From assembly GCF_002309535.1 (NCBI RefSeq), contig NZ_CP023275.1:930001-994000 (forward strand): a stretch of 64,000 bases of DNA. Direction: 5' to 3'. The notes under the pieces were generated by a model. It saw only the letters and a program-made list of their open reading frames with translations, made no database searches and had not been told where the DNA came from. Positions 33,718 through 56,767 of this stretch are shown here, in pieces (position 1 is the first letter of the stretch; the number at the start of each line of letters is the position of its first letter). Both the position numbers and the translations under genes were made by a program. The stretch is from Sulfurospirillum diekertiae. GTDB taxonomy: Bacteria > Campylobacterota > Campylobacteria > Campylobacterales > Sulfurospirillaceae.

Positions 33718-33826
33718 TGATATCAATAAGGATTATAGCGATAGAAATATCGCAACAATCCTTCTGCGTGTTACATGAACTTGTATATAACTCTCAATTT
33801 TGAATACTACACGAAAGGAACAAAGA

Positions 33827-34333
33827 ATGGCTGTTGAGCAAAGCAGAAGAGACTTTATAGGCATGGCATTCGGCGGTTTTGCAGCGGCAGGTGGTGTAAT
33901 AGCCCTTGGCGCTATGAAAAAAACTTGGGATCCACTCCCAAGCGTACAATCTGCTGGATTCATCACCGTTGATCTCTCTCCGATGAAAGAGGGAGAAGTC
34001 CAAACGATCCAATGGAGGGGTAAACCGATTTTCATTTTGAAAAAAAGTGCGGATATGCCCAAAAATGAGAAACGGGACATCGTTGCAAGTGGTAGTACCT
34101 ATGCAGTGATGATAGGACTTTGTACCCACTTAGGCTGTATCCCTACATGGATGCCAGCATCCAAACAATTTAAGTGTGCCTGTCATGGTGGTGAGTTTGA
34201 TTCAAGCGGTGTCAACACTTTTGGACCACCTCCAAGACCAATGGACATTCCTCCTTTTAAAATAGATGGAGCGAAGCTTGTTCTTGGTGAAGAAGGACCA
34301 GAGTATAAAAAACTGGTAGCTAAGAAAGCGTAA
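33827..34333 (+). CDS. petA: Rieske iron-sulfur subunit of the cytochrome bc1 complex
   Basis: ATG 33827, with aaagga upstream, gives 168 residues starting with a Tat-type anchor (SRRDFIGMAFGGFAAAGG). The 2Fe-2S ligands are in CTHLGCIP (about 104-111) and CACHGGEFD (about 123-131). It is the first of three bc1 genes (petABC). The protein receives electrons from quinol and passes them to the cytochrome c subunit. Confidence 0.9.
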   Translation: MAVEQSRRDFIGMAFGGFAAAGGVIALGAMKKTWDPLPSVQSAGFITVDLSPMKEGEVQTIQWRGKPIFILKKSADMPKNEKRDIVASGSTYAVMIGLCTHLGCIPTWMPASKQFKCACHGGEFDSSGVNTFGPPPRPMDIPPFKIDGAKLVLGEEGPEYKKLVAKKA

Positions 34334-34344
34334 AGGAGACAAAC

Positions 34345-35610
34345 GTGGCAGAAATTAGAAAAGCGACAGGCTTTATCGATTGGCTCGATCAGCGATTAGC
34401 AGTGAATAAGTTCATCAAAGTGATGATGACAGAGTATTGGATTCCTAAAAACATCAACTTCCTTTGGGCAATGGGCGTTGTTTTAATGGTTCTTTTTATG
34501 GTTCTGATTGTTTCGGGAATCTTCCTTTTAATGTATTATAAACCCGACATTAAACTAGCATTTGATAGTGTGAACTATACGATTATGCAAGAGGTAGAGT
34601 ACGGCTGGTTATGGCGTCATATGCACGGTGTTGCAGCTTCTGCTATTTTCCTTGTGATTTACATTCACATGTTTACGGGTATCTATTACGGTTCATATAA
34701 AAAAGGTCGTGAGATTATCTGGCTTACGGGTATGGCACTTTTTGGTATGTTCTCCGCTGAAGCTTTTAGTGGATATATGCTTCCATGGGGACAAATGAGC
34801 TACTGGGCAGCGCAAGTTATTACCAACCTTTTTGGTGGTATTCCTGTTATTGGTGATGCTTTGGTTATTTGGATCAGAGGAGATTTCTTAGTGGCTGATG
34901 CGACATTGACACGTTTCTTCATGCTCCATGTTCTTCTACTCCCATTGGTTATTCTTTTACTCATTGCCGTTCACTTCTACTCTTTAAGAATGCCTCACGT
35001 CAATAACCAAGATTCTGAAGAGTTTAATTTTGATGTTGAATCTAAAAAATACCTTGATGGTAAAAAAGTTGAATCTAAAGTGGTTCCATTCTGGCCTGTA
35101 TTCCTCTCCAAAGATTTCTTTGTTGTAGGCGTTGCCCTTACCATCTTCTTCTACTTGGTCTGTTTCCATTTTGATTTTGCGATGGATCCTATTAACTTTG
35201 AGCCAGCTAACAATATGAAAACACCTCCTCATATCTACCCTGAGTGGTATTTCTTGTGGAGTTATGAAGTGCTTCGTGGTTTCTTCTTTGATATTGCAGG
35301 CGTTCCTGCCATGAAAATTGGTCTAGCCGCGTTTGGTTTTGCGAATGTGATCTTTATGCTTCTTCCATTCCTTGATAGGAATCCTATGCATACCGCACCA
35401 GCGCATAAGCGTCCTGCGTTTTTCATCTGGTTCTGGTTACTCTTAATTGACATGATTGTCCTTACGGTTTATGGAAAACTTCCTCCAACAGGAAACAATG
35501 CATGGGTTGGCTTTGGTGCAACCATTGTCTTTCTTGCCTTGTTTATTATTCTTCCGATTATCACGAAAATGGAAGCAAACTGTAAATGTACTAACGGAGG
35601 TTGCAAATGA
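34345..35610 (+). CDS. petB: Cytochrome b subunit of the bc1 complex
   Basis: The 421-residue protein begins at GTG 34345 (ggaga upstream) and has eight or more membrane helices, paired heme histidines (WLWRHMHGVAAS, YIHMFTG; FMLHVLLLP, IAVHFYSLRM), and the quinol-site motif PEWYFLWSYEVLR. The C-terminus has a short cysteine-rich tail (ANCKCTNGGCK), unusual for cytochrome b and possibly metal binding. The stop overlaps the start of petC (ATGA). Confidence 0.9.
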   Translation: MAEIRKATGFIDWLDQRLAVNKFIKVMMTEYWIPKNINFLWAMGVVLMVLFMVLIVSGIFLLMYYKPDIKLAFDSVNYTIMQEVEYGWLWRHMHGVAASAIFLVIYIHMFTGIYYGSYKKGREIIWLTGMALFGMFSAEAFSGYMLPWGQMSYWAAQVITNLFGGIPVIGDALVIWIRGDFLVADATLTRFFMLHVLLLPLVILLLIAVHFYSLRMPHVNNQDSEEFNFDVESKKYLDGKKVESKVVPFWPVFLSKDFFVVGVALTIFFYLVCFHFDFAMDPINFEPANNMKTPPHIYPEWYFLWSYEVLRGFFFDIAGVPAMKIGLAAFGFANVIFMLLPFLDRNPMHTAPAHKRPAFFIWFWLLLIDMIVLTVYGKLPPTGNNAWVGFGATIVFLALFIILPIITKMEANCKCTNGGCK

Positions 35611-36476
35611 GAGAGTTAAAAATATTAGCGATTGTAATCTTCTTTACCGCTGTTGTTTATTGGGGCGTTGAGCCATTCGCACATTCTCAAATGCATCCTC
35701 ATGTTGCTCCTGCAGATTTTGCATTTAAAGATCTTGGGGCATCAGAGAAAAAAGGTGATGCCACCAAAGGGGCTGAAACCTTCTTAAGTGCGGGATGTAC
35801 AGGATGTCATGGTATTAGTGCTTTAGGTATGCCTGCACCTATGGATAATGCAAGTGCTTCAGCAACGTTTGGTGTTGTACCACCTGATCTTAGCAGTGCC
35901 GGTGCGATCTATGATAAAAACTTCCTTGCAGCACTCATTAAAAATCCAACGAAGGCACTTAACGTTGAACATAAGTTCAATGAGACACGTCCTCATCCGA
36001 TGATCCAATTCTTTGGCTTGGGTGGAGACTTAGATCAAGAAGTCGCAGATATTGTTGCGTATCTTCAAAGTATCGCTCCTGTTGCTCCAATGGATGATAA
36101 AAAAGTCTTCACAGATGCATGCCAAAGATGCCATGATATGAAGTATGACAAAATCATGAGTACGACAGATAAAGATGCGTTAAAAGCGTATATGGGAACC
36201 ATCCCACCGGATCTTTCCATGATGATTCGCTCTAAAGGTGCTGAGTATCTTACAACCTTTATCAACAATCCACAAAAACAACTGGCTGGTACTTCTATGC
36301 CTCGCGTTGGATTGAGTGAAAAAGCACAAAACCAAGTGATTGCTTATATGGAAAAAGTGGGTGATAGTAAAAAAGCAGAAAGAGACAATCTTGGGTATAA
36401 ACTCATTGGTTATATGGCGCTCTTTACCTTACTCGCTTATCTTTGGAAAGTCAAAATCTGGAGAGAAGTTCACTAG
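35607..36476 (+). CDS. petC: Diheme cytochrome c subunit of the bc1 complex
   Basis: ATG 35607 overlaps the petB stop and gives 289 residues. An N-terminal helix is followed by two cytochrome c domains with heme sites GCTGCHGIS (about 67-75) and ACQRCHDMK (about 172-180), then a C-terminal membrane helix (LIGYMALFTLLAYLWKV). A diheme c subunit replaces monoheme c1 in Campylobacterota. Methionine ligands are likely in HPMIQFFG and TSMPRVGLS. Confidence 0.9.
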   Translation: MRELKILAIVIFFTAVVYWGVEPFAHSQMHPHVAPADFAFKDLGASEKKGDATKGAETFLSAGCTGCHGISALGMPAPMDNASASATFGVVPPDLSSAGAIYDKNFLAALIKNPTKALNVEHKFNETRPHPMIQFFGLGGDLDQEVADIVAYLQSIAPVAPMDDKKVFTDACQRCHDMKYDKIMSTTDKDALKAYMGTIPPDLSMMIRSKGAEYLTTFINNPQKQLAGTSMPRVGLSEKAQNQVIAYMEKVGDSKKAERDNLGYKLIGYMALFTLLAYLWKVKIWREVH

Positions 36477-41830: not shown

Positions 41831-41875
41831 CTCATAAGCCGGAGGTCGAGGGTTCGAGTCCCTCTCTTGACACCA
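41831..41875 (+). tRNA. 3' half of a CAT-anticodon tRNA gene (attachment-site remnant)
   Basis: The sequence matches the 3' half of a tRNA: anticodon loop CTCATAA (41831-41837, anticodon CAT), 3' anticodon stem GCCGG, variable AGGTC, T-arm GAGGG-TTCGAGT-CCCTC (41848-41864), acceptor strand TCTTGAC, discriminator A and CCA to 41875. The 5' half is missing: the bases before the loop (ctttc) cannot pair with GCCGG, and no acceptor or D-arm precedes. This is a typical att core left by integration in the anticodon loop. The tRNA is Met-type or Ile2-type; I cannot separate them. Confidence 0.8.
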
Positions 41876-41916
41876 CTTAAACCCCGATATTACAGACTTC
41901 CAAAGACTTTAAAACT

Positions 41917-43014
41917 TCACAGTGCCATTATGGTGTCCTTGTTTTCATTCACACTGTATATGTCTATTGTCTTATTAAACAATTTTCGCTCTGCTGATAT
42001 ACTTCTTGTATAACGCTCAAACAACATTTGTGGTGTTGTATGCCCTAAAACAGATGCAATCTCATTGACACTGTATTGACCGCTCATAAGAAGATTCGTT
42101 GCACACGTATGGCGCATTTCATACATCCTACGATGAGCCAATCCACATTTTTTGAGAATATCTACCCACTGATTAGAACCTATTGTCTTGTAATCATAAA
42201 AAGGTCGCCCAAAGTGATTTACAAATACATACTCTTTATCACCACTGAACTTCTTTTGATTCTCAATAAAAGGCACTAATGTATCAATGATTGGAATGTA
42301 TCTAATACTACTTTGTGTTTTCGTAGTTCCTTCCACACCCATTGACCTTGATGCACATACATAGATTTCTCGTGTCTCAAGATTGACATTTTCCCACTTT
42401 AAAGCCACAATCTCACCAACTCTCATACCTGTCATAAATCCAAGTGCAAGATAGTTTTTAAACCATCCATGCGCCGTATCTAAAATGAGTTTGACCTCAT
42501 GAGGCATAAAAGGGGTTACTTTGGGCTTTTTCACTTTTAAAGAGTCCAACGCATCAAAAGGATTTTTATTCACTTCTTCATCTTGAAGTGCTTTTTGAAA
42601 AATACCTCTAAAGACAATTTGATACTCTTTAACCGTTTTGGCAGTAAAGCGTTGTAAAAGATCTCTGCGCCATTTATCAATATGTGAAATTCGTAAATCT
42701 TTAATGGGTGTATCGCCCAATAAAGGTAAAATTCCATTCTCAATAATGGACTCATAACGTTTATGTGTCTTAGCAACCGTTGTCTGTCGCTTTGATTCTA
42801 TAAACATTTCAGCATAGTAGCGCACCGTTTTAATGCGCTCTTTTTGAAGTGATAACGTTCCCGTCATTACGCCCATTCTAAGCTGAGGTATCAGCTCTTT
42901 TTCGACCTTTTTGACATTGGACGCTGTCCACTCCAGACCTGTAGACTTTCTGATTCTCGCTCCATTGGCGAACAAATCTATCCACACCCGATTGTTTTTT
43001 TTGAATACTGACAT
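41917..43014 (-). CDS. int: Tyrosine recombinase/integrase
   Basis: ATG 43014 gives 365 residues (an upstream start would add 31 doubtful residues). The catalytic set is present: Arg in MTGMRVGEI (about 205-213), the His-x-x-Arg in YEMRHTCAT (about 298-306), His in VLGHTT (about 321-326) and Tyr in FERYTRS (about 331-337). An N-terminal core-binding domain (YYAEMFIESKRQTTVAKTHK) precedes. It lies 42 bases from the tRNA fragment and points towards it, as expected for an integrase beside its att site. Confidence 0.9.
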   Translation of the reverse strand: MSVFKKNNRVWIDLFANGARIRKSTGLEWTASNVKKVEKELIPQLRMGVMTGTLSLQKERIKTVRYYAEMFIESKRQTTVAKTHKRYESIIENGILPLLGDTPIKDLRISHIDKWRRDLLQRFTAKTVKEYQIVFRGIFQKALQDEEVNKNPFDALDSLKVKKPKVTPFMPHEVKLILDTAHGWFKNYLALGFMTGMRVGEIVALKWENVNLETREIYVCASRSMGVEGTTKTQSSIRYIPIIDTLVPFIENQKKFSGDKEYVFVNHFGRPFYDYKTIGSNQWVDILKKCGLAHRRMYEMRHTCATNLLMSGQYSVNEIASVLGHTTPQMLFERYTRSISAERKLFNKTIDIYSVNENKDTIMAL

Positions 43015-43267
43015 TGTTTGACTCCTGAGTTGTTTCCCAAAGCCAAGTATCCAGTTTCTCTTTTGCAAACAGTATTTTACCTGCTTTATCTGAATAATGA
43101 ACTCCAAGAATAAAAGTTTGATCGGCGATTTTATGCCTTATTGTATGTGGGGAGAGGCGCAAATAACTTGCAACCTCTTCAACGGTCATTAACGGTTTTG
43201 CATAACCTATAATGAGTGCTTTTAGCTCCTCTATATCCTCTTTGGTGATAAGTTCTACGCTTGCCAT
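42878..43267 (-). CDS. xis: Excisionase-like HTH protein
   Basis: The 129-residue reading frame has an HTH_17/AlpA-type domain (LMTVEEVASYLRLSPHTIRHKIA, about 26-48, then GKILFAKEKLDTWLWE). The last 45 codons overlap the integrase gene by 137 bases in another frame and look unlike a conserved domain; an A8 run near 43001 could allow slippage. It overlaps the rep gene by 13 bases. Such proteins direct excision and replication of integrative elements. Confidence 0.65.
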   Translation of the reverse strand: MASVELITKEDIEELKALIIGYAKPLMTVEEVASYLRLSPHTIRHKIADQTFILGVHYSDKAGKILFAKEKLDTWLWETTQESNNVSIQKKQSGVDRFVRQWSENQKVYRSGVDSVQCQKGRKRADTSA

Positions 43268-44661
43268 AGTTCAAGCTCACTTTGTTCATACTTACGTTTT
43301 TTTATCTCTGATTCAATGGCTTTGAGATTTTTTGTAATCAAAGAGATATCCCAATCTTGTTCTGTAAATTCACTATGTAATGCTTTAAGGAGCGATGCCT
43401 CAAACTGTTTTAACTTATATGTACTGATCAGTGTTAAGTTTGCAGGGAGGGTTTTTATAGGTGTACGATTACGAGAAAGAACATAATTAACTCCATCCAC
43501 AATCAAAGGAAGAGGCTTAAAAGGTTTTAAAAGCTTTTTAGTGCGCTCGGTAAACCAAAGACCACTTCGCTTTAGGATTTCTTGCACATTCTCTTGTGAT
43601 AAATAAACATCATTTTCCACACCTTTATTTAGGAGGTTTTGAAATTCCATCATAAACACTTTAGAATTATAAACGCTCTTTTTAGGGATAATTTTTTCCA
43701 ATGCTTCGTATGATTGAGGAATGGCATTAAAGGTGTAAGATTGGTCGATGTACTCCCATAAAGGATGCGTTTTAGCACGATGCCAACGATTTGCTTCTAA
43801 GTCTTTTTGTGAGAGGGTTGTTTTATCCACAAAGCGGATAATTTTCATACAATGATGAAACAGTATCTCTACGTTTTTAAGTCCATCTTCTACGGTTCTA
43901 ATACCATAGCGTTTAAAAAAATCACGATGCCATTCAAACTCAAAATTCCAAATGGGCTTATTAAGATCAAAGCCGTGAAAGACGAAATACGCTTCCATTA
44001 GCGAGCGTTTTTCTTTACCAATAAGCTCTATTCTTTTATCGTAAAAACGTGCTAAAAAGGGATTGTCACCGATCTTTAAGGATTGATAGCCTCTTCGTCC
44101 GCCATCTTCTCGTCTATTTTTGCGCTTTTTACTGATAATAAAGTCTTTTTCAATAACAGAGCTTAGATCAAACTGCACAAAAATATTGCCATCCATACGA
44201 GTTAATTGTGAACAAATATTCGCTATAGGAGAGACGAGGGCTTCAATATAGCGAATAAGCCCAACAAGCCCTAATAAATAGATGCCTGTTGCTTCACATT
44301 GCACTTGAATATCTAAAAGCTTGGTATTTTGTGAGGGATGCTTTAATCCAATACGAAACCAACGAGCAGTATCAATAAAAAAGTAATAACCTTTACTCAT
44401 ACCGTTAAAGAAGAACTCTTTATCACCTATAACAATACGAAGTGTATCTTTAGGGATAAAACCATCGTATTGTTCTTTAGCTGAGAGTATCTTTTGTGCA
44501 AGTGATTCAAAAAAATCACGATACGCTTCATTACTTGGATAATAACTATAAAGGGTATCCACACCGCTTATAGTTTTAAAATCATAGCCCTTTGAGAGGG
44601 AAACATTGTCCGACACTAACGTCTCATTGGAAGTTGAGACAACACTTTTTTTGATAGACAT
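43255..44661 (-). CDS. Replication initiation protein (Rep_trans-like) of an integrative element
   Basis: The 468-residue protein resembles rolling-circle Rep_trans initiators: YDKRIELIGKEKRS (about 209-222) following GYQSLKIGDNPFLARF, and IWNFEFEWHRDFFKRYGIRT (about 235-254), with an earlier RMDGNIFVQFDLS. The pattern is a hydrophobic strand, ARFYDK, then a charged E-x-E/R-D core. With int and xis it makes a compact three-gene integrative element. Assignment is by pattern and context. Confidence 0.6.
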   Translation of the reverse strand: MSIKKSVVSTSNETLVSDNVSLSKGYDFKTISGVDTLYSYYPSNEAYRDFFESLAQKILSAKEQYDGFIPKDTLRIVIGDKEFFFNGMSKGYYFFIDTARWFRIGLKHPSQNTKLLDIQVQCEATGIYLLGLVGLIRYIEALVSPIANICSQLTRMDGNIFVQFDLSSVIEKDFIISKKRKNRREDGGRRGYQSLKIGDNPFLARFYDKRIELIGKEKRSLMEAYFVFHGFDLNKPIWNFEFEWHRDFFKRYGIRTVEDGLKNVEILFHHCMKIIRFVDKTTLSQKDLEANRWHRAKTHPLWEYIDQSYTFNAIPQSYEALEKIIPKKSVYNSKVFMMEFQNLLNKGVENDVYLSQENVQEILKRSGLWFTERTKKLLKPFKPLPLIVDGVNYVLSRNRTPIKTLPANLTLISTYKLKQFEASLLKALHSEFTEQDWDISLITKNLKAIESEIKKRKYEQSELELWQA

Positions 44662-45238
44662 TTAGACCTCAATAATGAGGCTCCACGTAATCCGAGTATT
44701 ATCTATTTGTCATATTTAAGGGGGTATATACTATCTACCCCCCTTTAGGCTAACGCCTCGATCAACCTTACCACTTCATAGCAATATCTTTTGCTCGTTG
44801 TTATCCCTACAGACAAGCTGTAGTGATTTAGGTTAAGGCTTCGCCTTTCTGCTTCATGGGGACACAGTCCCAAGTTCGCAGAAATTGCGTGTGCATTATG
44901 TGACAATGGATAATAATTTGGTCTTTTTGGATTAATTTATGTGTTTTTGTGAGATATATTTGTTTGTAGTAGGCTTTGCGTGTCTTTGTGGCTTCTCTTT
45001 TAGCTTTTGCTTTACTTTTGCCGAATGTGACTTAATATGCCTGAATTGTTCTGATTGTCTCTTAATTGTTCTTGTATAGTTTCTTAGCAACCCTTGTTCG
45101 GTTCAGATGGAACCAAGAATTTACCAATTAGATTGGTGTAGGAGGATTTTAATACTTTTTGTAGAAGTTGTCAAGAGAGAATTTGCATGATACAATTTCT
45201 ATACAACAAAATTCTAACGACTATCGCAGAATAGTATT
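44662..45238. other. Non-coding region upstream of rep, candidate replication origin
   Basis: These 577 bases hold no supported gene. Close to the rep start are three hairpins: 44718-44746 (GGGGGTA with TACCCCC), 44835-44847 (AAGGC-TTC-GCCTT) and 44857-44872 (GGGAC-ACA-GTCCC). This is where a double-strand origin for a rolling-circle Rep would be expected. From 44900 to 45238 the sequence is AT-rich with no clear structure. Confidence 0.5.
44718..44746. repeat. G5/C5 inverted repeat upstream of rep
   Basis: GGGGGTA (44720-44726) and TACCCCC (44736-44742) are perfect complements with a nine-base AT-rich spacer (tatactatc); AAGG/CCTT flanks may extend it. It starts 59 bases before rep and could be a nick site or a rep operator. 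Confidence 0.6.
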
Positions 45239-46466: not shown

Positions 46467-47780
46467 TCACCATTTCAACCGCAAGGCTTGGCAAATGGTT
46501 TTTCTCAACTGTGGTGCAACTTCTAACGTTTTAGCTTGATCTTCAAAGGTTTGAAAAGCACTAACCACTTCATCAAGAATCGATTGTGCTTTTTTGGCAT
46601 TGAGATTACAATAAGCACCAAATTGGATCAAATCTTCACGAAGAAAATCTTCCTGTTTGCCGGATAGCTTGATTTGATGGCTTCTCGTCCATTTACCAGT
46701 TGGATCATACGCGTAAGTCATATCAAAGGCCGGAGCAAGTTTCCATGTACCTGTTTTATCCATTAAAAAACCAAAGTTCTTCGTGTGATCGTCTTGATTG
46801 CGACCAATGATATTAAAAAGTGCTCTTCGATACAACTCTGTGATAGCATCTTGACCTAAGCCTAGTTGCCTTGTCATTAAAACAAGCTGTTCATATGAGT
46901 ACGTTCCCGTAGCATCTCTATCGGCATGAGCAAGCCCGCTCCAAGAAGCATAGTGAACTTTTTGAAGTTTTGAGGTGCTTGTATCTCGATCAAAACGTTT
47001 TATTAAGAAATGAAAATCTTCGCCGTCCTCAATATAATCTACATTTGGCATATCAATACCGCATTTTTTAGCTAATTGAGCGTAAATGTACTCCACTTTT
47101 GGCATACCTTTAGGATCTTTAGCATCTCTATCGCTGTTTTGGGCCGAATCAAATTTTAAAAGCCAGTAGGAATGCAAAGATCCATGATCAATGGTTCCAT
47201 CGTAAAAATCCCCTTTTTTATCTCGTGCCACCAACGCTTTAGCCCGTGCGCCTCCTGCACTGGAACCCACACGAATCAGATTGAGCGCATCTTTTTTAGT
47301 GTGCGCCTTTTGAAGGTTTACATGTAAACTCTCTTTGTTCGATAGGACCAGTTGCGCAAGTTCTGAGAGAAGATGCACATCTAACACCGTGTTGGATTCT
47401 TGTGGCGTATCATCAAATTCTGATGGACGATACTCCAATGCTCCCATGCCTCGTGTTCCCACATATAAAAGACGATCCAAAGTCGTGATAGATTCGGGTG
47501 CTATTTTCTTCTCAGCCATGAAAATATCAATCAGCTGATTACCATATTTATCAGGTAATGAATCAGCAAAAATCCCCGCGATACCTTTAAAGGTTCGAAG
47601 ACTAATGTCTGGGAAACTAAAGCGACTGGGCGGATAATGCATCCTTAAAGGAGAGGGATAAATCATTGAGCGTATAAACGCTTCTGTGTACTCAAATGTA
47701 GCTATCTCTGTTTGCCCTGGAGCGTATCCTAAATAACCAATGGTCGTGCCCCATAATTTAACTTCAACACGTCTACTCAT
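46467..47780 (-). CDS. hipA: HipA-family serine/threonine kinase toxin
   Basis: ATG 47780 overlaps the hipB stop (ATGA) and gives 437 residues. HipA features are present: N-terminal LWGTTIGYLGY (about 8-18), GSSAGGARAKALVA (about 173-186), YWLLKFD (about 206-212), catalytic-loop NIIGRNQDDHTKNFGFL (about 308-324) and metal-binding LAPAFDMTYAYDPTG (about 333-347). HipA kinases phosphorylate translation factors such as glutamyl-tRNA synthetase and cause dormancy. It contains one TTACATGTAA copy (47318, SLHVNL), which suggests longer residence than the neighbouring int-rep genes. Confidence 0.85.
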   Translation of the reverse strand: MSRRVEVKLWGTTIGYLGYAPGQTEIATFEYTEAFIRSMIYPSPLRMHYPPSRFSFPDISLRTFKGIAGIFADSLPDKYGNQLIDIFMAEKKIAPESITTLDRLLYVGTRGMGALEYRPSEFDDTPQESNTVLDVHLLSELAQLVLSNKESLHVNLQKAHTKKDALNLIRVGSSAGGARAKALVARDKKGDFYDGTIDHGSLHSYWLLKFDSAQNSDRDAKDPKGMPKVEYIYAQLAKKCGIDMPNVDYIEDGEDFHFLIKRFDRDTSTSKLQKVHYASWSGLAHADRDATGTYSYEQLVLMTRQLGLGQDAITELYRRALFNIIGRNQDDHTKNFGFLMDKTGTWKLAPAFDMTYAYDPTGKWTRSHQIKLSGKQEDFLREDLIQFGAYCNLNAKKAQSILDEVVSAFQTFEDQAKTLEVAPQLRKTICQALRLKW

Positions 47781-48112
47781 TGATCTTCTCCCCACGTAAA
47801 AGTTGTGTTAGAAGCAGGTTTTTTGCGTATGCGTTTTTTAGGAGTACTCTGCTCTTGCAAAGGGCTATAGGTGTGAGAAATATCCAAAAGTGTTTCGAGC
47901 TTATCTAGTGCCCCAATACCTCGCAAAAGACGAATGAAATTTTTGAGGCTAATGCCACTTTTAGCATTGATAAACCGATCATACGTATTATGGTTGGTAC
48001 CACTTTTTTCTAAAAGCTCACTAATGGGAACTTCTTTCGTACGACGAAGCGTATCGAGCTTCTTTCCCAAATCATGGACAATCTCATCGTCCGTTAAGAG
48101 TGTATATGCCAT
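47777..48112 (-). CDS. hipB: HipB-like antitoxin
   Basis: The 111-residue protein has an XRE-type HTH (TLRRTKEVPISELLEKSGTNHNTYDRFI) and a basic C-terminal tail (PKKRIRKKPAS). It overlaps hipA by four bases. HipB neutralises HipA and represses the operon by binding dyads. Two dyads lie upstream (48141-48164 and 48184-48203). Confidence 0.8.
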   Translation of the reverse strand: MAYTLLTDDEIVHDLGKKLDTLRRTKEVPISELLEKSGTNHNTYDRFINAKSGISLKNFIRLLRGIGALDKLETLLDISHTYSPLQEQSTPKKRIRKKPASNTTFTWGEDQ

Positions 48113-48276: not shown

Positions 48277-48400
48277 TTACAAATAGATTAAAGTGCTCTT
48301 TATTCTATGAGCAAGGGGTTTGCTAACCAAAACGATATTTGTGCCTGAATCTAAAAGGCAAATGGCACGAGTGTGACGTAAGGTATGAGGATGTGCTCTC
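48277..48400 (-). pseudogene. Remnant of a tyrosine recombinase C-terminus
   Basis: On the minus strand the frame reads HPHTLRHTRAICLLDSGT then NIVLVSKPLAHRIKSTLIYL and stop. This is the His-x-x-Arg and His region of XerC/D-like recombinases (compare HPHTLRHTFATHLL). The upstream part is missing, replaced from about 48397 by a copy of the short inverted-repeat element. It marks an old integration event at this end of the mobile region. Confidence 0.65.
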
Positions 48401-48496
48401 AAGTGAACAGTAAGAATGGGCATATATTTTCAAGATAAGCTCTTGTTTGAGGCTTTTAAAAGAATTTTATATGGCTAAAACCGCATTTTGTCTGAC
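48397..48496. repeat. Short inverted-repeat element copy R3
   Basis: The sequence from tcaagtgaacagtaag to ttttgtctgac aligns along its length with R4 (56251-56351), especially aggcttttaaaagaattt against aggtttttaaaagaatta. It truncates the integrase remnant. Spacing from the aldehyde dehydrogenase gene is 131 bases, so it may also affect that promoter. Confidence 0.55.
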
Positions 48497-48627
48497 ACTT
48501 AGACATTTTCTTTTCTGTGCATCATAAACTGTTGACAGATCAATTGAAATTTAAGAACATTGCGAGTTTTTCGCGATTTTTTTGGTTTATGATAATCTCA
48601 ATAAATTTCACAGATGGAGAATCAATT

Positions 48628-50073
48628 ATGAAAGAGTACATGCCTTTTATTAATGGTAAAAATAGTACATCATCAACACGAAAAGTGATCGATGATATCA
48701 ATCCTGCGACGGGTGAGGTATTTGCCAAAATTCATTTAGCAAATGCAGAAGATATCGAAGAAGCAATTAGCTGCGCACACGCTGCATCAAAGCTTTGGGC
48801 AAAAACAACACCACGCGAGAAAGAAGCCGTTTTATTAAAAGCAGTCGACATTTTTGAAAGCCGTACGGATGAGATTCGAACCATTTTGATGAAAGAGAGC
48901 GGTTCGGTTTTTGCCAAAGCGATGTTTGAAATCGGTCTTGTTGCGGACATTCTACGCGTAGCAGCGGGTGAAGCACGACGTGTATTTGGTCAAACATTCA
49001 CCTCAAATGATCCTGGCGTCCTCTCTTACAGCACACGTCGTCCTCTTGGCGTTATTGCCGGCATATCTCCCTTTAATGCTCCGATGATTTTAAGCACCAA
49101 AAAATTTGCCATGGCTATTGCGGCGGGTAATGCGTTTGTCTTGAAACCTTCGAGCCATACTCCGATCTGTGGTCTTATATTTGGTGAAATCTTTAAAGAA
49201 GCGGGATTACCCGATGGCGTATTAAACATTATCCCTTGTTCTAGCAGTGATTTAGGGGAAATATTTCAAACGGATCCTCGTATTTCGATGATTACATTGA
49301 CTGGTTCTACACGTGTTGGTAAATTAGTCGCAGCTTCAGCAGCTATGAATTTAAAAAAATGCACAGTTGAACTTGGCGGTAAATCTCCAACCATTGTACT
49401 CGGAGACGCAAATGTTGATTATGCTGTCGATACTTCCACATTTAGTATTTTCCTGCATCAAGGACAAATTTGTATGGCAGGATCGCGCATCATCATTGAA
49501 GAAAATATTTATGATGAATTTTGTGAAAAATTTGTGGCTAAAGTGAAAACACTCAAAGTCGGCAATCCTGAAGATCCATCGACTATTATCGGACCATTGA
49601 TCGAAGAAGCGCACTGTAAATATATTGATGGATTGATCGATGATGCGGTAGCAAAAGGAGCCAATCTCCTTTCTGGACGCGAGCATGAAGGCTGTTTCTA
49701 CAAACCAACTGTTGTTTCCAATGTTACGGCAGAGATGGTTATTTTTCATGAAGAAGTCTTTGGTCCAGCGGTAGCTCTTATCAAAGCACGCAATTTGGAT
49801 CATATTATTGAACTTGCCAATAACAGTACCTACGGACTCAGCTCTTCCATCATCACCGATAATTTAAGTGCGGCGCTAAGACTCTCTGAAGAGATAGAAT
49901 CGGGAATGGTACATATCAACGGACCGACCATTCAAGATGAAGCTCATATTCCATTCGGTGGAGTGAAAGAGAGTGGCATGGGACGTGAGGGAGGTCACTT
50001 CGCCATCGAAGAGATGACTGAACTCAAATGGGTCACTGTCGAAGCGATAGGAAACAGACATTATCCATTTTAA
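48628..50073 (+). CDS. pchA: Aldehyde dehydrogenase, probable 4-hydroxybenzaldehyde dehydrogenase (PchA-like)
   Basis: ATG 48628 with ggaga nine bases upstream gives 481 residues. It is an NAD(P)-dependent aldehyde dehydrogenase: ISPFNAP (about 146-152), LKPSSHTP (about 172-179), the glycine motif LTGSTRVGK (about 224-232), catalytic Glu in ELGGKSP (about 248-254) and catalytic Cys in HQGQICMAGSR (about 280-290). Similarity to the benzaldehyde/vanillin dehydrogenase group and the nearby PchC/PchF genes suggest it oxidises 4-hydroxybenzaldehyde to 4-hydroxybenzoate. Substrate is inferred. Confidence 0.7.
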   Translation: MKEYMPFINGKNSTSSTRKVIDDINPATGEVFAKIHLANAEDIEEAISCAHAASKLWAKTTPREKEAVLLKAVDIFESRTDEIRTILMKESGSVFAKAMFEIGLVADILRVAAGEARRVFGQTFTSNDPGVLSYSTRRPLGVIAGISPFNAPMILSTKKFAMAIAAGNAFVLKPSSHTPICGLIFGEIFKEAGLPDGVLNIIPCSSSDLGEIFQTDPRISMITLTGSTRVGKLVAASAAMNLKKCTVELGGKSPTIVLGDANVDYAVDTSTFSIFLHQGQICMAGSRIIIEENIYDEFCEKFVAKVKTLKVGNPEDPSTIIGPLIEEAHCKYIDGLIDDAVAKGANLLSGREHEGCFYKPTVVSNVTAEMVIFHEEVFGPAVALIKARNLDHIIELANNSTYGLSSSIITDNLSAALRLSEEIESGMVHINGPTIQDEAHIPFGGVKESGMGREGGHFAIEEMTELKWVTVEAIGNRHYPF

Positions 50074-50075
50074 TT

Positions 50076-50098
50076 GATAACCCCTTTGTGGGGTTATC
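50076..50098. terminator. Hairpin after the aldehyde dehydrogenase gene
   Basis: GATAACCCC (50076-50084) pairs perfectly with GGGGTTATC (50090-50098) around a five-base loop. It lies two bases past the stop. There is no long T-run, so termination may be partial or bidirectional. Confidence 0.65.
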
Positions 50099-50210
50099 TC
50101 CATATGTATATTCACTCATATAGGCTTACGATGATATATTTTCTCATCATCAGCATGTTAAAAAATGGGTACAGTTCAATTATTTTATTGATATTTCGGC
50201 AAGAATGTTG

Positions 50211-50960
50211 CTAATAGGCTATAATTTTGTATCCTACTTTTGAATAACATATTAGAAAATCTTTGGGAAGTTTTTGTCGAATGCGAAACATCAAAGATCG
50301 CAATGATCCTTCTCCTACTAATTCTCCGTCCCAAACATAATCTTCTATTTGTGCGACACTGACAATTTCACCTATATGTCACACAAGCAACTGAATCAAT
50401 TTTTTTTCTTTATGGTTTAAAAGAATCTCTTTACCTGCAAGCAAGAGTGTTGCTTCATTATTATCAAAAATATAGCCATGTTTTAGTTTCACAAAACGCA
50501 TTTTTGATTTTATTTCCAAAGAAAATTTACTCTGAAGTGATGTAATTTCACTGTTTATTTCATTGAGTTTTCCCGTCAATGTTTTATTCTCACTAAAGGT
50601 TTTCAATGCAATTTCAATCGTTGTTTTGAGCTCAACATCTTTAAAAGGTTTTAGAATATAGCCATAAGGTTTAACAGTAATCGCCTTATCGATTGTTTGG
50701 TTTTTATCGTTGGCGGTTAAAAATACAATCGGTACAGAAATACGTTCCGATATTTTTTCGGCAAGCACGATGCCATCTTCTCTATCTTGAAGCGTAATAT
50801 CCATCAGGATCAAATCAGGTTTTTTAGTCTCAACCAGATGGAACGCTTTTTCACTGTTGGCAGCGATGCCAACGACCGTGTAGCCAAAGCTCATGAGTAT
50901 CTCTTTGATATTTAAAGCAATGATGCTTTCATCTTCAACGATTAAAATTTTTGCGTTCAT
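50211..50960 (-). pseudogene. Response regulator with an in-frame UGA in its DNA-binding domain
   Basis: The receiver domain is intact (EDES, Asp in LILMDITLQ, LTANDK, LKPFKD). The frame stops at TGA 50379-50381 after KKLIQLLV, but the same frame continues for 55 further residues (HIGEIVSVAQIEDYVWDGEL ... VGYKIIAY) to TAG at 50211-50213. Those residues are a normal winged-helix output domain, so the UGA splits a 249-codon gene. It is either a recent nonsense mutation, a sequence error, or read through. The first 193 residues alone would be a receiver without DNA binding. Confidence 0.75.
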
Positions 50961-52261
50961 TGATTTTCACTTTTCTTGGGCTTAAATGTGATTGAAGTGC
51001 AATATCCATGATTAGAATCTGTTTCTATGGTGCCATTTAATTGATATTCCGTAATGGTATGGATTAATTGGCATCCAAGTGAGTTGTTCGTATCTGCTTT
51101 GGTGGAATCCATCCCAATACCATTGTCTTTTACCCCAAATACAACCGTTCCATTGTGATTATTTTTGATAAAAATATCAATAATCCCGCTCTCTAACCCA
51201 ACAAAAGCATGCTTGATTGCATTTAAAAAAAGTTCATGAATAATTAAAGCAACTAACACAGCATCATCCATGGTTAAAAAAATACTATCCGTATTGAGAT
51301 TGACAGATATATTTTTGTTTTGCGCATAGAGATCTATCATAGCAGACGATAATTTTTCAAGATGCGACTTCATATTGATATTAGATGAATTACTGTTTTT
51401 ATAAAGCATTTCATGCACAAGAGCGATTGCATAGATACGGCTTTGGCTCTTAGAAAGAGCTTCTTTAACCTCTTCATTGGGTTCTCGTCGATTTTGCATT
51501 TGAAGAAGTGAAGAGATGACTTCTAAATTGTTTTTAACCCGATGATGAATCTCTTTAATTAAAACTTCTTTATCTTGAAGTGAATTTTTAAGGGCTTTGT
51601 TTTGATTGATGATCAGTTTTCGTTTCTCTTTTTCTTCCGTAATATCGCGACCAAAAGCACAAATAAACTCTTTGGAAGCATCGCAAAAATAACTCGCCGA
51701 AATAGAAGCGGGAAACGTACTTCCATCATGACGCGTCTGCTGACTCTCGAAACAGACATATTGCTTTTGCCTAATGTGCATTAAAAAATCGGGAGTATTT
51801 TTTTTGTAGTCTCTATCAATATCGCTCAGTTTCATACTGAGTAATTCTTGTTTCGTATACCCTAGCATTTTACAAGCGGCATCATTGACATAGAAAAACT
51901 GCGTATCGAAGGTAAACCAATAAATCGCGTCAGCACTTTTGTCCAGCGCGAAGTTAAAAAGTTGAAGATTTTCTTTTTCTTGGCGCTGATGACAAGAGAG
52001 CTTATTTAATGCCTCTTCGGCTACTTGAGCAGTCCGCCTCAGTAATAAGTATAAAATCGTTGCACTGACGATAAAAAAGGTGACCCCGATACAAAAAGGG
52101 ATTCCAAAGAATCCATGATTTTCTATAGTCATGAAACTCATTGAAACTCGATCAACAACGGCAACACCGAGAATTCCTACAATAGCAAATCCTATGGCTT
52201 GGATCTTAATGCGATTTGAATTAGACATTTTAAACAATAAATATGTAACCCAATCTAACAA
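50957..52261 (-). CDS. Sensor histidine kinase (HisKA_2 family) with two membrane helices and PAS
   Basis: The 434-residue kinase uses TTG 52261 with ggag seven bases upstream, the same TTG-TTA-GAT start as the regulator at 32625. It has helices at about 20-42 and 48-72, a PAS domain (about 98-220), and the HisKA_2 H-box IKEIHHRVKNNLEVISSLLQMQNRR (about 236-260), followed by an ATPase domain with GVKDNGIGMD. It overlaps the response regulator by four bases. Placed between pchA and pchC, it is a likely sensor for the aromatic substrate. Confidence 0.8.
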   Translation of the reverse strand: MLDWVTYLLFKMSNSNRIKIQAIGFAIVGILGVAVVDRVSMSFMTIENHGFFGIPFCIGVTFFIVSATILYLLLRRTAQVAEEALNKLSCHQRQEKENLQLFNFALDKSADAIYWFTFDTQFFYVNDAACKMLGYTKQELLSMKLSDIDRDYKKNTPDFLMHIRQKQYVCFESQQTRHDGSTFPASISASYFCDASKEFICAFGRDITEEKEKRKLIINQNKALKNSLQDKEVLIKEIHHRVKNNLEVISSLLQMQNRREPNEEVKEALSKSQSRIYAIALVHEMLYKNSNSSNINMKSHLEKLSSAMIDLYAQNKNISVNLNTDSIFLTMDDAVLVALIIHELFLNAIKHAFVGLESGIIDIFIKNNHNGTVVFGVKDNGIGMDSTKADTNNSLGCQLIHTITEYQLNGTIETDSNHGYCTSITFKPKKSENQ

Positions 52262-52433
52262 TAATTTTCTCCATTTTTATTTAGATTGTACACCAAAGTC
52301 GTAACATATTACCTTATGTAAATCACATAATGATCAAATTCACTCTTATAATGTGTCAAAAATGATTTTGCGATTTTTTTGTGATTTTTTTATTTTATAT
52401 TTACTTTCAAGAAAATAATTTAGGGAGGTTTGA

Positions 52434-52760
52434 ATGGAAAAGTTTGCTCTTGGGCTCATATTTGCTACATCATCCATCTTTGCGGTGGAACTGGGTCAAA
52501 ATTATAAATTTGCAAATGGAGAAGATGCCTATCAAAAGGTTTGTGCTTATTGTCATACGATCAATATTGCGCCAAAATCTATTTATATGAAAATGGATGA
52601 CAAGGCAGGTATTGAGGCAAGAAGAGACAGTATTATGCAAACAGTAAGAAGTGGAAGCAATGCGATGCCTGCATTTAGAAAATCAGAAATTGATGACGCC
52701 ACATTGAAAGATTTAGCAACCAAATTGGCCAATGGTACAATCACTTTTACTGAAAAATAA
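52434..52760 (+). CDS. pchC: Cytochrome c subunit of a p-cresol methylhydroxylase-type enzyme (PchC-like)
   Basis: The 108-residue protein has a Sec signal (MEKFALGLIFATSSIFA) and one heme site KVCAYCHTINIAPKS (about 35-49), with the Met ligand probably in NAMPAFRKSEIDD (about 81-93). In p-cresol methylhydroxylase the small cytochrome subunit takes electrons from the flavoprotein. The following pchF homologue makes this assignment secure by context. It starts 172 bases after the divergent kinase, in a shared promoter region. Confidence 0.75.
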   Translation: MEKFALGLIFATSSIFAVELGQNYKFANGEDAYQKVCAYCHTINIAPKSIYMKMDDKAGIEARRDSIMQTVRSGSNAMPAFRKSEIDDATLKDLATKLANGTITFTEK

Positions 52761-52770
52761 GGAGAGTATG

Positions 52771-53352
52771 ATGATTCGAAGAGCTTTTCTTAAAGGATCT
52801 GTCGCTGCCGTAGCCGCTGTATGCGCTCCACTATCCGCAGAAGGATTTATCAGTGATTCTAGTAGTCAAAAAAAGATTGCTTTTGTCTCCAAAACGGCTG
52901 GAGAAACTGGATATATCAACGCATTATCACAAGGTCATAGCACCAAAACAGACGATCTTGTGGTCCTTGGTTCTGATAAATTGCAAAATTTAACGACCTT
53001 TTCTGAAGTCATGGAAAAAAATAAAGGGGCATTGATCTGTGGGCTATTGGAGCAAAGTGATTATATGCTTTTACATCATATAGCAGCATTGAATGGTGCA
53101 AAATTTATCTCGGAAACGACACATACGCCTGCAGATATGGGAACGCGTCATACAGAAAATTCATTCTTAACATTGTCTGTTAAAAAAGCATTTGATCAGT
53201 TTGTAGACGTGAATACAAATCACTATGGAATGGTACTTTCATCATACCATGCGCTTGGATTAAATACGACGCTAACGGATGCTAAGCAAATGAGTTTTGT
53301 ATCGAATCACACCGATAAAAACGCTTTTGTATCTTTTATATTAAACGCTTAA
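52771..53352 (+). CDS. Tat-signal protein between pchC and pchF (PchX position)
   Basis: Two ATGs (52768, 52771) follow ggagag; the second has the better spacing. The 193-residue product starts with IRRAFLKGSVAAVAAVCAPL, a twin-arginine-like signal, and has no heme or flavin motif. Its place between the cytochrome and flavoprotein genes matches pchX of the Pseudomonas pchACXF operon, whose function is unknown. It may help covalent flavin attachment or assembly of the secreted complex. This role is inferred. Confidence 0.6.
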   Translation: MIRRAFLKGSVAAVAAVCAPLSAEGFISDSSSQKKIAFVSKTAGETGYINALSQGHSTKTDDLVVLGSDKLQNLTTFSEVMEKNKGALICGLLEQSDYMLLHHIAALNGAKFISETTHTPADMGTRHTENSFLTLSVKKAFDQFVDVNTNHYGMVLSSYHALGLNTTLTDAKQMSFVSNHTDKNAFVSFILNA

Positions 53353-53366
53353 AAGGAGGATTAACT

Positions 53367-54908
53367 ATGAGTAAACTTACGGCATTACCTAAAAATGTTT
53401 CAGAAGAAACCATGAATAAAGCCATTAAAGAATTTGTAAAAATTTTGGGAGCTGACAATGTACTGATCGGTGCAGAGGAGATGGTCCCCTACAGTAAAAT
53501 TATGATGGCCGTTGATATTAAAGATCATATGCCTTCGCTTGCACTACAACCATCAACCAAAAAAGAAGTGGTTGAAATTGTCAAAGTCTGTAATAAATAT
53601 GTAATTCCACTTTGGACATTTTCTACGGGCAAAAACATGGGTTATGGTACGGCAGCTCCTGCACAAAAAGGCTCAGTTATCCTTGATCTTCATAAAATGA
53701 ATAAAATTATTGAAGTCAATCCTGACTTGTGCTATGCCATTCTTGAACCAGGTGTTACGTACCAACAACTCTTTGACTATATCAAAGAAAAAGGATACAA
53801 ATTATGGCTCTCTTGCCCTGCACCAAGTGCGATAGCCAGTCCTGTTGGCAACACAATGGATCGTGGTGTTGGATACACGCCTTATGGCGAACACTTTATG
53901 ATGCAATGCGGTATGGAGATCGTTTTAGCCGATGGAACATCTTTTAAGACAGGTATGGGCGGCATTGAAAATTCGACAAGCTGGGCCGTCTTTAAATGGG
54001 GATACGGACCATCTCTTGATGGTATCTTTACCCAAAGCAACTACGGTATTTGTACCAAAATGGGTATTTGGTTAATGCCAGAGCCACCTGCGTTCAAACC
54101 ATTTTGTATTACATTTGACAAAGTCGAAGATGTTGTCGAGATTGTTGAGTCACTCAGACCTCTTCGTATCGCTAATATTATTCCAAATGCTTTTACGATT
54201 GCAAGCACACTTTACGAAGCGGCAGGTGTCGTTAACCGTTCAGATTATGTAAAAGGCAATAGATCTATTACCGATGAAGAGATCGAAAAAATTAAAAAAG
54301 ATACCGGTATGGGTACATGGAATGTCTATGCTGCCTTATATGGTACGGAAGAAGCCAATGAGTTAAACTGGCAAATTATCAAAGCAACGCTGGCTAAATT
54401 TAAAAATGCTAAATTCTTGACCGAAAAAGAGATGGGTCATGACCCTGTCTTCAAATACCGTTCAGACTTAATGAAAGGCCATATGACACTTCAAGAGTTT
54501 GGTCTTTACAACTGGAGAGGGGGCGGAGGAAGTATGTGGTTTGCACCTGTTTCTCCTGCGGAAGGTAAACATACACTTAACCAACAAGCATTGGCTAAAA
54601 AAATCATGAACAAATATGGGTTCGACTATGTAGCTGAATTTATTGTTGGATGGCGAGATATGCACCATATTATTGACTTGCTCTATGATCGAAATGATCC
54701 AGACCAATTGAAAAAAGCACATGATTGTTATGCTGAATTGGTACATGAATTTGCAAAACAAGGGTATGGCGTCTATCGGACCAGTAGCGGATTTATGGAT
54801 CTTGTAGCTGAAACATACGGTAAAGATATTCATAATGTTTTCCAAAAGATCAAGCGGGCACTTGATCCTAAAGGTATTTTATCTCCAGGCAAGTCTGGTA
54901 TTTATTAA
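53367..54908 (+). CDS. pchF: p-Cresol methylhydroxylase-type flavoprotein subunit
   Basis: The 513-residue protein aligns closely, from memory, with Pseudomonas PchF through its length: GNTMDRGVGYTPYGEHFMMQ, CGMEIVLADG, FKWGYGPSLDGIFTQSNYGI, and LQEFGLYNWRGGGGSMWFAP. The latter holds the Tyr that carries covalent FAD in PchF. Residues of the substrate pocket and electron path are kept (YSKIMM, EFIVGWRDMHH, YGVYRTS), while the C-terminal LSPGKSGI has Lys where PchF has Arg. The enzyme oxidises 4-alkylphenols by way of a quinone methide using water, so no oxygen is needed. It is not Tat-tagged itself. Confidence 0.9.
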   Translation: MSKLTALPKNVSEETMNKAIKEFVKILGADNVLIGAEEMVPYSKIMMAVDIKDHMPSLALQPSTKKEVVEIVKVCNKYVIPLWTFSTGKNMGYGTAAPAQKGSVILDLHKMNKIIEVNPDLCYAILEPGVTYQQLFDYIKEKGYKLWLSCPAPSAIASPVGNTMDRGVGYTPYGEHFMMQCGMEIVLADGTSFKTGMGGIENSTSWAVFKWGYGPSLDGIFTQSNYGICTKMGIWLMPEPPAFKPFCITFDKVEDVVEIVESLRPLRIANIIPNAFTIASTLYEAAGVVNRSDYVKGNRSITDEEIEKIKKDTGMGTWNVYAALYGTEEANELNWQIIKATLAKFKNAKFLTEKEMGHDPVFKYRSDLMKGHMTLQEFGLYNWRGGGGSMWFAPVSPAEGKHTLNQQALAKKIMNKYGFDYVAEFIVGWRDMHHIIDLLYDRNDPDQLKKAHDCYAELVHEFAKQGYGVYRTSSGFMDLVAETYGKDIHNVFQKIKRALDPKGILSPGKSGIY

Positions 54909-55014
54909 TAACGATCTTTATAGGCACTTCACTACGGTTGCATGAACAATGCCTCAATCGTGTGAAGCGCCACCTTGCCAACTCTCTGTGTTCAAAAACC
55001 TAAAGGAGACAATA

Positions 55015-56205
55015 ATGAAATTAACCCAACTCTCTTTGGCAACAATGATGATAGGGTACTTTTCGATGCATGCTTTTGCCGCAGACACACTTGCGGATGC
55101 ATTTAAAGAAGGTAAACTAACGGGTGAAATTAAAGCTGAATATTCCGATTCAAATTTTATTGGAAAAACACATTCGGATGATATCAGTGCATATGGAGGA
55201 AGTTTAAATTTTATAACAAGTGATTTTTATGGACTTAAAGCGGGGATCACTTTTCAAACCTCTCATTTAGCCAATTCTGATACCGCAGGTGCTGTCTTTC
55301 AAGATGATTTAGATACACAAGGGTCAGTCTTATCTGAAGCCTATTTAGATTATAAAATTTCGAATACCTCTTTAAAAGTAGGTAGACAATATATCTATAC
55401 ACCATTGGTCAGTTCCGCGTTAGATGGTAAATCTTCCGAAAGCATTTTAAAAGATTCTTTTGAGGGCTATGTTTTAACCAATACGGATCTTCCAAGTACC
55501 ACATTCATTGCAGGATACCTATCCAAATATCAAGCAAAAACAGATGGATTGGGGAAATCTGGAGAATTTAATACCTTTCAAGATGGCGCATATACGGTAT
55601 ATGTCAAAAATACGTCTATTGAAAATGTAACCTTGCAAGCACAATATCTTGATGAAAATGGGATGAGTTCTTTTGAAGATAAAAATGCTTTTTATGTCCA
55701 AGCAGATTATGTGCTTGCAGGACATACCCTTTCTGCTCAATATCTCTCTTCGACCGATAAAACAAAAGCTTCGGGAGCACAAGCTGGGCAAATCTTTGGA
55801 CTCAGAGCTACAGGTGGACTTGGTATTGGAAAGCTTGGATACATCGCTGCTTATACCTCAAGTATGGATGATGGAGCTGTTTACACCGGTGCGGGAACGG
55901 GAACCAGCGATACGCTGTTTACAGCAATGCCCGTAAATGGTGGTGGTGTTGCGGCAAGAGCCAATACGGATACCGTCGTAGGAGGATTGATTGTTCCTAT
56001 CACAAGCGTAACAACCATAGCATATGCAGGAGAATCTTTTTCAAACGATCCTGGATTGGGAGACGTAAAAGCATATGGTGTAATCGCGATCTATCCATAT
56101 GACAAAAATTTCTTAGTAAAAGCCAATTATGAACATGTAGCGACGGAACATGTTTTCACGGAAAATACAGAAATTGTACGAGTTTACGTGTCTTATAAAT
56201 TCTAA
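55015..56205 (+). CDS. Outer-membrane porin, OprD-like
   Basis: ATG 55015 follows taaaggag and gives 396 residues with a Sec signal (MKLTQLSLATMMIGYFSMHAFA). The mature protein has alternating beta-strand pattern, Gly/Tyr/Thr-rich turns, and ends VRVYVSYKF with terminal Phe, typical of outer-membrane beta-barrels. SGEFNTFQDGAYTVYVKNTSIENVTLQAQY fits campylobacterial OprD-type porins. It is 106 bases after pchF and probably admits the aromatic substrate. Confidence 0.75.
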   Translation: MKLTQLSLATMMIGYFSMHAFAADTLADAFKEGKLTGEIKAEYSDSNFIGKTHSDDISAYGGSLNFITSDFYGLKAGITFQTSHLANSDTAGAVFQDDLDTQGSVLSEAYLDYKISNTSLKVGRQYIYTPLVSSALDGKSSESILKDSFEGYVLTNTDLPSTTFIAGYLSKYQAKTDGLGKSGEFNTFQDGAYTVYVKNTSIENVTLQAQYLDENGMSSFEDKNAFYVQADYVLAGHTLSAQYLSSTDKTKASGAQAGQIFGLRATGGLGIGKLGYIAAYTSSMDDGAVYTGAGTGTSDTLFTAMPVNGGGVAARANTDTVVGGLIVPITSVTTIAYAGESFSNDPGLGDVKAYGVIAIYPYDKNFLVKANYEHVATEHVFTENTEIVRVYVSYKF

Positions 56206-56767
56206 ATGTAACCAGGTGTGTTTAATATAGAATCTTAAAGGGGTTAGGATTGTCAAGAGAAGTGTAGAAATTAGGTATATATTTTTGAAATTTTTGCATA
56301 CTCTAGGTTTTTAAAAGAATTATATAGGACTAAAATTGCACTTCATCTACGGCTCAAAGAATTATAGACAGATATCCCGTATCAAGATTGGGGGAAAGAT
56401 GCTAATGGGCATAACTTCTGGCGTAAAGCAAATTACAAATTCTAAGTCATTGCTTGTTGAATATTTTCTTTATGGGACAGTAGTCGTTAGTGCCTACTGT
56501 CTCTAGAAAATTACATGACGGCTTTTAAGAGTTTTTTATTAAGAGGGTTTACCATTGGAGTTCTTTACTTGTCATTTTCATATTCTTTAAATCTATAAAA
56601 ATTAATTTTTATATTATTGTATTTATCAACAATATTTTTATCTTATACTGTCTCACTGAGAAACTTAAAGCCTTGTATGTCTATAAAATTATCTGTTAAA
56701 GAACAAGAGATATAATAATCTATTCAATGAATTAATTAAAATTGTTATGTCACAGGAGTAGAAGATT
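56206..56767. other. Intergenic region with repeat element and hairpin
   Basis: These 562 bases hold repeat copy R4 (56251-56351), a perfect eight-pair hairpin GACAGTAG/CTACTGTC (56476-56483 with 56494-56501), and AT-rich sequence. A 35-codon frame starting near 56400 has no ribosome site or known similarity and is not called. Confidence 0.6.
56251..56351. repeat. Short inverted-repeat element copy R4 (about 101 bp)
   Basis: The left arm TGTCAAGAGAAGTGTAG (56251-56267) and a right arm ending gcacttcatctacg (complement CGTAGATGAAGTGC) form imperfect inverted repeats. Length and interior match R3, and the arms match R2. Confidence 0.6.

Follow-up and report, generated by a model that had tools for sequence, protein, structure and literature searches.

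The cassette studied here lies in a window of 64,000 nucleotides, which is the whole stretch of DNA that was analysed. The open reading frames of 48517-56205 were assigned with Pfam and NCBIfam, and PchF and PchC by phmmer against the PDB. The pch genes, the porin and the two-component genes that the first-pass annotation had named were all found in 48628-56205, together with repeats and a recombinase remnant at the edges:

48277..48420, minus strand: C-terminal fragment of a decayed tyrosine recombinase (HTLRHTRAICLLDSG...) at the left cassette edge, recognised by motif only in a frame translation
48450..48493, plus strand: imperfect 44-bp direct repeat that flanks the cassette, left copy, 80% identical to 56305-56348
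48562..48582, plus strand: operator-like direct repeat GCGAGTTTTTCGCGATTTTTT before pchA, with a -10-like TATGAT at 48588
48628..50073, plus strand: pchA-like (4-hydroxybenz)aldehyde dehydrogenase (Aldedh E 7e-164)
50211..50378, minus strand: winged-helix output domain of the response regulator, left untranslated past the premature stop
50379..50960, minus strand: response regulator truncated to its receiver domain (Response_reg E 6e-24) by a premature in-frame TGA
50957..52261, minus strand: sensor histidine kinase (PAS, HisKA_2, HATPase), ATG start probably at 52228
52370..52390, plus strand: operator-like direct repeat GCGATTTTTTTGTGATTTTTT before pchC, with a -10-like TATATT at 52396
52434..52760, plus strand: PchC, cytochrome c subunit (signal peptide, CAYCH, NAMPAF)
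52771..53352, plus strand: PchX, Tat-signal partner protein
53367..54908, plus strand: PchF, FAD subunit of p-cresol methylhydroxylase; its Tyr381 corresponds to P. putida Tyr384
55015..56205, plus strand: Opr/OprD-type outer-membrane porin (NF033923 E 3e-10, under the curated cut-off)
56305..56348, plus strand: second (right) copy of the 44-bp repeat, with sister-species synteny restarting at 56353

PchF has the domains FAD_binding_4 and FAD-oxidase_C and matched 1dii_A, the flavoprotein chain in the structure of the P. putida enzyme, with 699 bits (E 2.5e-209). It is 57% identical to the p-cresol methylhydroxylase (PCMH) of P. putida. Its dedicated c-type cytochrome subunit is present as PchC, for which the PCMH cytochrome subunit 1dii_C was the best PDB match (E 7e-6). 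PchA is 93% identical to the aldehyde dehydrogenase next to pch on a plasmid of Sulfuricurvum kujiense and 54-56% identical to those adjoining pchF in Herminiimonas and Geobacter.

We then placed PchF in a tree of 60 rows (quick IQ-TREE, LG+G4, SH-aLRT; 11 inner forks unsettled) that includes a Rhodococcus oxidase-type sequence, the vanillyl-alcohol dehydrogenase 8s7p and the nsVAO 9ffk. Within the PCMH group, PchF and nine other campylobacterial sequences formed a clade with full support. The first-pass annotation had named a different phylogenetic placement as grounds for dropping its claim; PchF grouped with neither the oxidase nor the vanillyl-alcohol dehydrogenase, and 9ffk, placed in the EUGH clade by PMC7617285, branched outside the PCMH group, but the eugenol-hydroxylase subgroup is only incompletely excluded because the tree holds no characterised eugenol hydroxylase. 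At 32 of 35 positions hand-picked on the P. putida sequence PchF carries the same residue, including Tyr95, Glu380, Tyr384, Glu427, His436, Asp440, Tyr473 and Arg474 (P. putida numbering), and it differs at 290, 320 and 331. The FAD-linking tyrosine (8alpha-O-tyrosyl-FAD), Tyr381, and the stretch PSAIASPVGN are as in P. putida. This tyrosine and the Ala-Ile pair near flavin N5 agree with the dehydrogenase signature described in PMC7617285, where the vanillyl-alcohol/eugenol oxidase (VAO/EUGO) signature is given as a His-linked FAD with Leu plus Asp/Glu at N5. Membership in VAO/EUGO was ruled out by the clade, the Tyr-type linkage and the Ala-Ile pair. By its clade, FAD tyrosine, N5 pair and cytochrome partner, PchCF is very probably a p-cresol methylhydroxylase with predicted turnover of that substrate, and the earlier proposal that a campylobacterial genome has a peripheral pathway of the PCMH type was borne out by the clade and the conserved residues.

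The same chemistry could serve mainly another substrate, such as 4-ethylphenol, vanillyl or 4-hydroxybenzyl alcohol, creosol or another lignin- or oil-derived phenol, which we consider rather unlikely. The family is broad, with a 43%-identical PCMH relative that hydroxylates bisphenol F (PMC12724174), and the S. kujiense host was isolated from crude-oil drain water. However, among the characterised members compared, the p-cresol enzyme is the one nearest to PchF in sequence and residues, and the p-cresol genes of Geobacter (PMC1924859) bracket it from outside, their proteins branching in our tree outside the group that unites the window PchF with that of P. putida. We thus keep p-cresol as the preferred substrate.

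Next, we looked at how far the cassette extends among relatives. Of 397 sampled Campylobacterota genomes, 26 had a PchF-family match: the host, six close homologues (62-87% identity) and 19 at ~35%. The search of other genomes of the genus that had been suggested earlier returned the cassette in one of 24, and a genome of the same species is without it; the cassette is accessory. The 87% homologue lies on a 118.6-kb plasmid of S. kujiense, which belongs to the same taxonomic order as the host, and a Sulfuricurvum MAG fragment is 88% identical to PchF over its partial length. The locus is not a chance assembly, since the block of response regulator and kinase plus pchC-pchX-pchF recurs in Sulfuricurvum-type genomes. 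Our literature searches, with most subscription papers outside their reach, gave no account of PCMH in Campylobacterota; the cassette is not unique to the host, as Sulfuricurvum and other Campylobacterota have it.

The 19 genomes at ~35% identity (L010-L028) hold a second VAO/PCMH-type flavoprotein group. In the loci read (L115-L119) the order is Tat-signal X, F, cytochrome, the aligned members do not have the FAD-linking Tyr, and three copies (G164, G107, G173) each carry one in-frame TAA.

The cassette sits in a variable hotspot of 40.4-56.35 kb: synteny with the sister-species genome G379 ends at 40425 and restarts at 56353, with other DNA between in G379. The 44-bp repeat occurs in two copies only in 96 kb of own sequence, and both bracket the cassette, with the recombinase fragment at its left edge. 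We conclude that the PCMH cassette is a mobile module, probably acquired horizontally. Base composition gave no sign of recent transfer (cassette GC 37.9% vs 36.2% for the window), and that line was dropped. Left of the cassette, 41831-44715 holds tyrosine integrase, excisionase-like and replication-like ORFs, matches part of the same-species genome G056 at 91% identity and represents an integrated element. A HipB/HipA-like pair lies directly left of the cassette (46467-48112); the S. kujiense plasmid has a hipA neighbour too, but at just 26% identity, and hipA was left out of the cassette.

In G061 and in genomes of the Sulfuricurvum type the response regulator and kinase adjoin pchC, and in L117 and L118 they stand next to a distant X-F-C operon. 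A kinase search of the 397 genomes (E <= 1e-70) gave 15 matches, of which the nine best (46-100% identity) were all in genomes with a PchF-family protein; the other six (38-39%) were in genomes not among the PchF-positive ones. As judged from these sequences, the two-component system is conserved together with the cassette across Campylobacterota. In relatives the regulator has ~250 aa and ends in Trans_reg_C (E 1.4e-11 in an intact relative), and receiver and output domain stand in one chain; the host regulator stops at 193 aa with an in-frame TGA, leaving the output domain untranslated at 50211-50378. An intact two-component system in the host strain was ruled out by this stop, and calling the pathway complete, as had been done, is too strong because the regulator is truncated, while the peripheral PCMH-type gene set itself was confirmed. 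Since the regulator is without its DNA-binding domain, expression of the cassette in the host is uncertain and it may be silent there; the truncation suggests decay or a sequencing error.

A closer examination of the promoters of pchC, pchA and the distant operon revealed a direct repeat with an 11-bp period, GCGAnTTTTTnGCGAnTTTTT (with GAGA at the distant operon). In 15 promoters, several of them from close relatives and thus not independent, it lies at a fixed gapless distance ahead of a -10-like hexamer. The host genome has two matches to the pattern GYGANTTTTTNGYGANTTWWT, one at pchA and one at pchC, where base composition predicts ~0.006; the two matches arise by construction because the pattern was written from the same promoters, and the informative part is that the genome has no further occurrence. 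The repeat is likely the operator of the two-component system. In relatives, the kinase and OmpR-type regulator would probably activate pchA and pchC through its paired GCGA boxes.

The broken regulator, together with the recombinase fragment and direct repeats at the cassette edges, could also indicate a decaying, unexpressed import in the host strain, surrounded by mobile-element debris. We hold this to be possible but doubtful: the remaining six genes have open, conserved reading frames, neither operator has been lost, and the regulator can still be aligned beyond its stop, which makes the lesion either recent or an error.

PchF has no signal peptide, and we examined the gene before it as a candidate for its export. 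In a scan of 1.7 kb upstream of pchF, at loci with pchC and enough flank, a Tat-signal ORF was present in 79 of 83 loci (many of them close relatives, so not 83 independent cases) vs 33 of 502 control windows (6.6%). Among the four misses, three (L094, L108, L116) have such an ORF in an earlier scan, and the fourth (L040) has one next to its second copy. In hhalign, the mature PchX sequences of campylobacteria and proteobacteria aligned with 97% probability (E 2e-11). Pfam and NCBIfam offered no family model beyond Tat-signal models and scattered chance matches, and an AlphaFold2 model (pLDDT 79.7) had no Foldseek match in the PDB at E <= 0.001. At two loci without PchX, Novosphingobium ES2-1 and THN1, PchF starts with its own Tat signal. 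Within the distant family, a Tat-signal ORF adjoins the flavoprotein at plasmid loci L194, L195, L196, L200, L202 and L203, as it does in the Sphingobium yanoikuyae SJTF8 operon (L201), whose flavoprotein is a relative of the bisphenol F enzyme BpfA (PMC12724174); L198 has a less typical RR-containing leader. In a stricter scan, no Tat-signal ORF was found in the two actinobacterial loci, L197 (Rhodococcus) and L205 (Corynebacterium), or in L204; the F-C locus L207 has none either.

These arrangements fit a Tat hitchhiker pair, with the signal on the partner PchX and none on the cargo PchF. The association is strong, and we propose as the mechanism that PchX probably escorts folded PchF through Tat. 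PchX might instead be a Tat-exported periplasmic assembly or flavinylation factor, PchF crossing otherwise, for example with PchC; we regard this as possible but doubtful. PchC is said, in work of Kim et al. from 1995, to be needed for covalent FAD attachment. A 2025 paper proposed that the signal peptide of the cytochrome guides the PchC-PchF pair (PMC12724174). Yet the PchC signal is Sec-type, and Sec passes unfolded single chains, and the two operons without PchX carry the Tat signal on PchF itself. We therefore favor the escort. Our searches of the literature, again mostly outside subscription journals, found no Tat role of PchX, and PCMH has been known as periplasmic since 1985 (Hopper et al., as cited in PMC12724174).

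To follow the fate of the product, downstream aromatic pathways were examined in eight genomes with family-model searches. Strong LigB dioxygenase (E ~1e-65) and PobA-type (E ~1e-87 to 1e-90) matches appeared only in G061 and G300. The host genome, searched for PobA and LigB, has no PobA and no true LigB, only weak FAD_binding_3 matches and a low-scoring LigB match common with G056. It has no benzoate-CoA ligase or HcrA above cut-off (HcrA 201 vs 994.55 bits), TIGR02262 and TIGR03194 are below cut-off, and its single HGD-D protein also occurs in the same-species genome without pch. In agreement with the view that ring-cleavage and benzoyl-CoA genes are missing, the tested families for protocatechuate cleavage, 4-hydroxybenzoyl-CoA and class-I benzoyl-CoA were absent, which leaves room for decarboxylation of the UbiD type, a benzoyl-CoA reductase of class II or a ring pathway not yet recognised. 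Because no ring-degrading genes turned up among these families, 4-hydroxybenzoate would probably be excreted and the cassette used as an auxiliary electron source or for detoxification; the earlier suggestion of an excreted product and an electron-yielding enzyme fits best with these absences, as an interpretation.

Separately, G061 (L113 128-5111) has LigAB, two amidohydrolases, an RraA-like aldolase and a PrpF protein adjoining pchA, and contig C17 33580-36425 (L177) of G300 has LigB and a PobA-type protein on another contig than pch. These protocatechuate 4,5-cleavage genes point to ring cleavage of aromatics within Campylobacterota.

The electrons from PCMH are delivered to cytochrome c. 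The window does hold an N2O reductase (nosZ 28063-30666) and a bc1 complex (33800-36476), both recognised from translations as the first-pass annotation had reported, and the host genome has a haem-copper oxidase; the role in cresol oxidation that was suggested for bc1 fell away, since entry at cytochrome c makes it unnecessary. Coupling to N2O or other N-oxides may occur, with the haem-copper oxidase as another candidate outlet.

Taken together, we consider it likely that the whole is best explained by a horizontally acquired PCMH cassette that converts p-cresol to 4-hydroxybenzoate for electrons. The porin would admit a 4-alkylphenol, most likely p-cresol, and periplasmic PchF, with its covalent tyrosyl-FAD, would abstract a hydride from the benzylic carbon. 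Water would add to the resulting quinone methide, and a second round would give 4-hydroxybenzaldehyde, which PchA would oxidise to the acid for excretion. Electrons would pass to PchC, the cytochrome c pool and an acceptor, either the haem-copper oxidase or NosZ. A wider proposal, to which we give about an even chance on present sequence evidence, is that PchX is the dedicated Tat escort of the whole cytochrome-dependent 4-phenol dehydrogenase family, and that in Campylobacterota escort, enzyme, sensor pair and GCGA-box operator form one mobile module letting chemolithotrophs draw electrons from p-cresol with the ring kept.

These results extend PCMH to Campylobacterota, a group not known for the use of aromatics, where a compact sensor and operator module accompanies the cassette; they suggest a truncated, electron-only use of an aromatic compound. 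If true, escort by PchX may account for the periplasmic arrival of a long-known, leaderless flavoprotein. One deletion would suffice to test the export question, given how nearly universal the Tat-signal gene is and given the two operons that, without it, have the Tat signal on PchF.

Finally, we compared the host cassette with known systems. The PCMH operon of P. putida NCIMB 9866/9869 has the order pchACXF. The host has in common with it the enzyme subunits, the C-X-F order, the Tat-signal X, an aldehyde dehydrogenase partner, the FAD-linking Tyr and the sampled catalytic residues, and differs in the 57% PchF identity, a different regulator, an added porin, a PchA from another aldehyde dehydrogenase branch (42% to the Pseudomonas type) and a downstream aromatic pathway that was not found in the host. 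The plasmid pSULKU01 (NC_014754.1) of S. kujiense DSM 16994 is alike in the response regulator-kinase pair, pchC, pchX, pchF (87%), the porin after pchF, pchA (93%) and the paired GCGA boxes, but it is plasmid-borne, its regulator is intact and its pchA lies further downstream on the other strand. In Geobacter, the anaerobic p-cresol genes (Gmet_2125-2126, PcmIJ; PMC1924859, PMC12724174) likewise join PCMH to a Tat-signal X gene and a related aldehyde dehydrogenase (56%), but with a pair of flavoprotein paralogues, genes for a membrane complex and a complete benzoyl-CoA pathway. In Aromatoleum aromaticum EbN1, p-cresol genes are under the control of a two-component system, PcrSR (PMC10715001), as is predicted for the host; PcrSR pairs a V4R-domain sensor with a sigma54-dependent regulator, whereas the host has a PAS/HisKA_2 kinase and an OmpR-type regulator.
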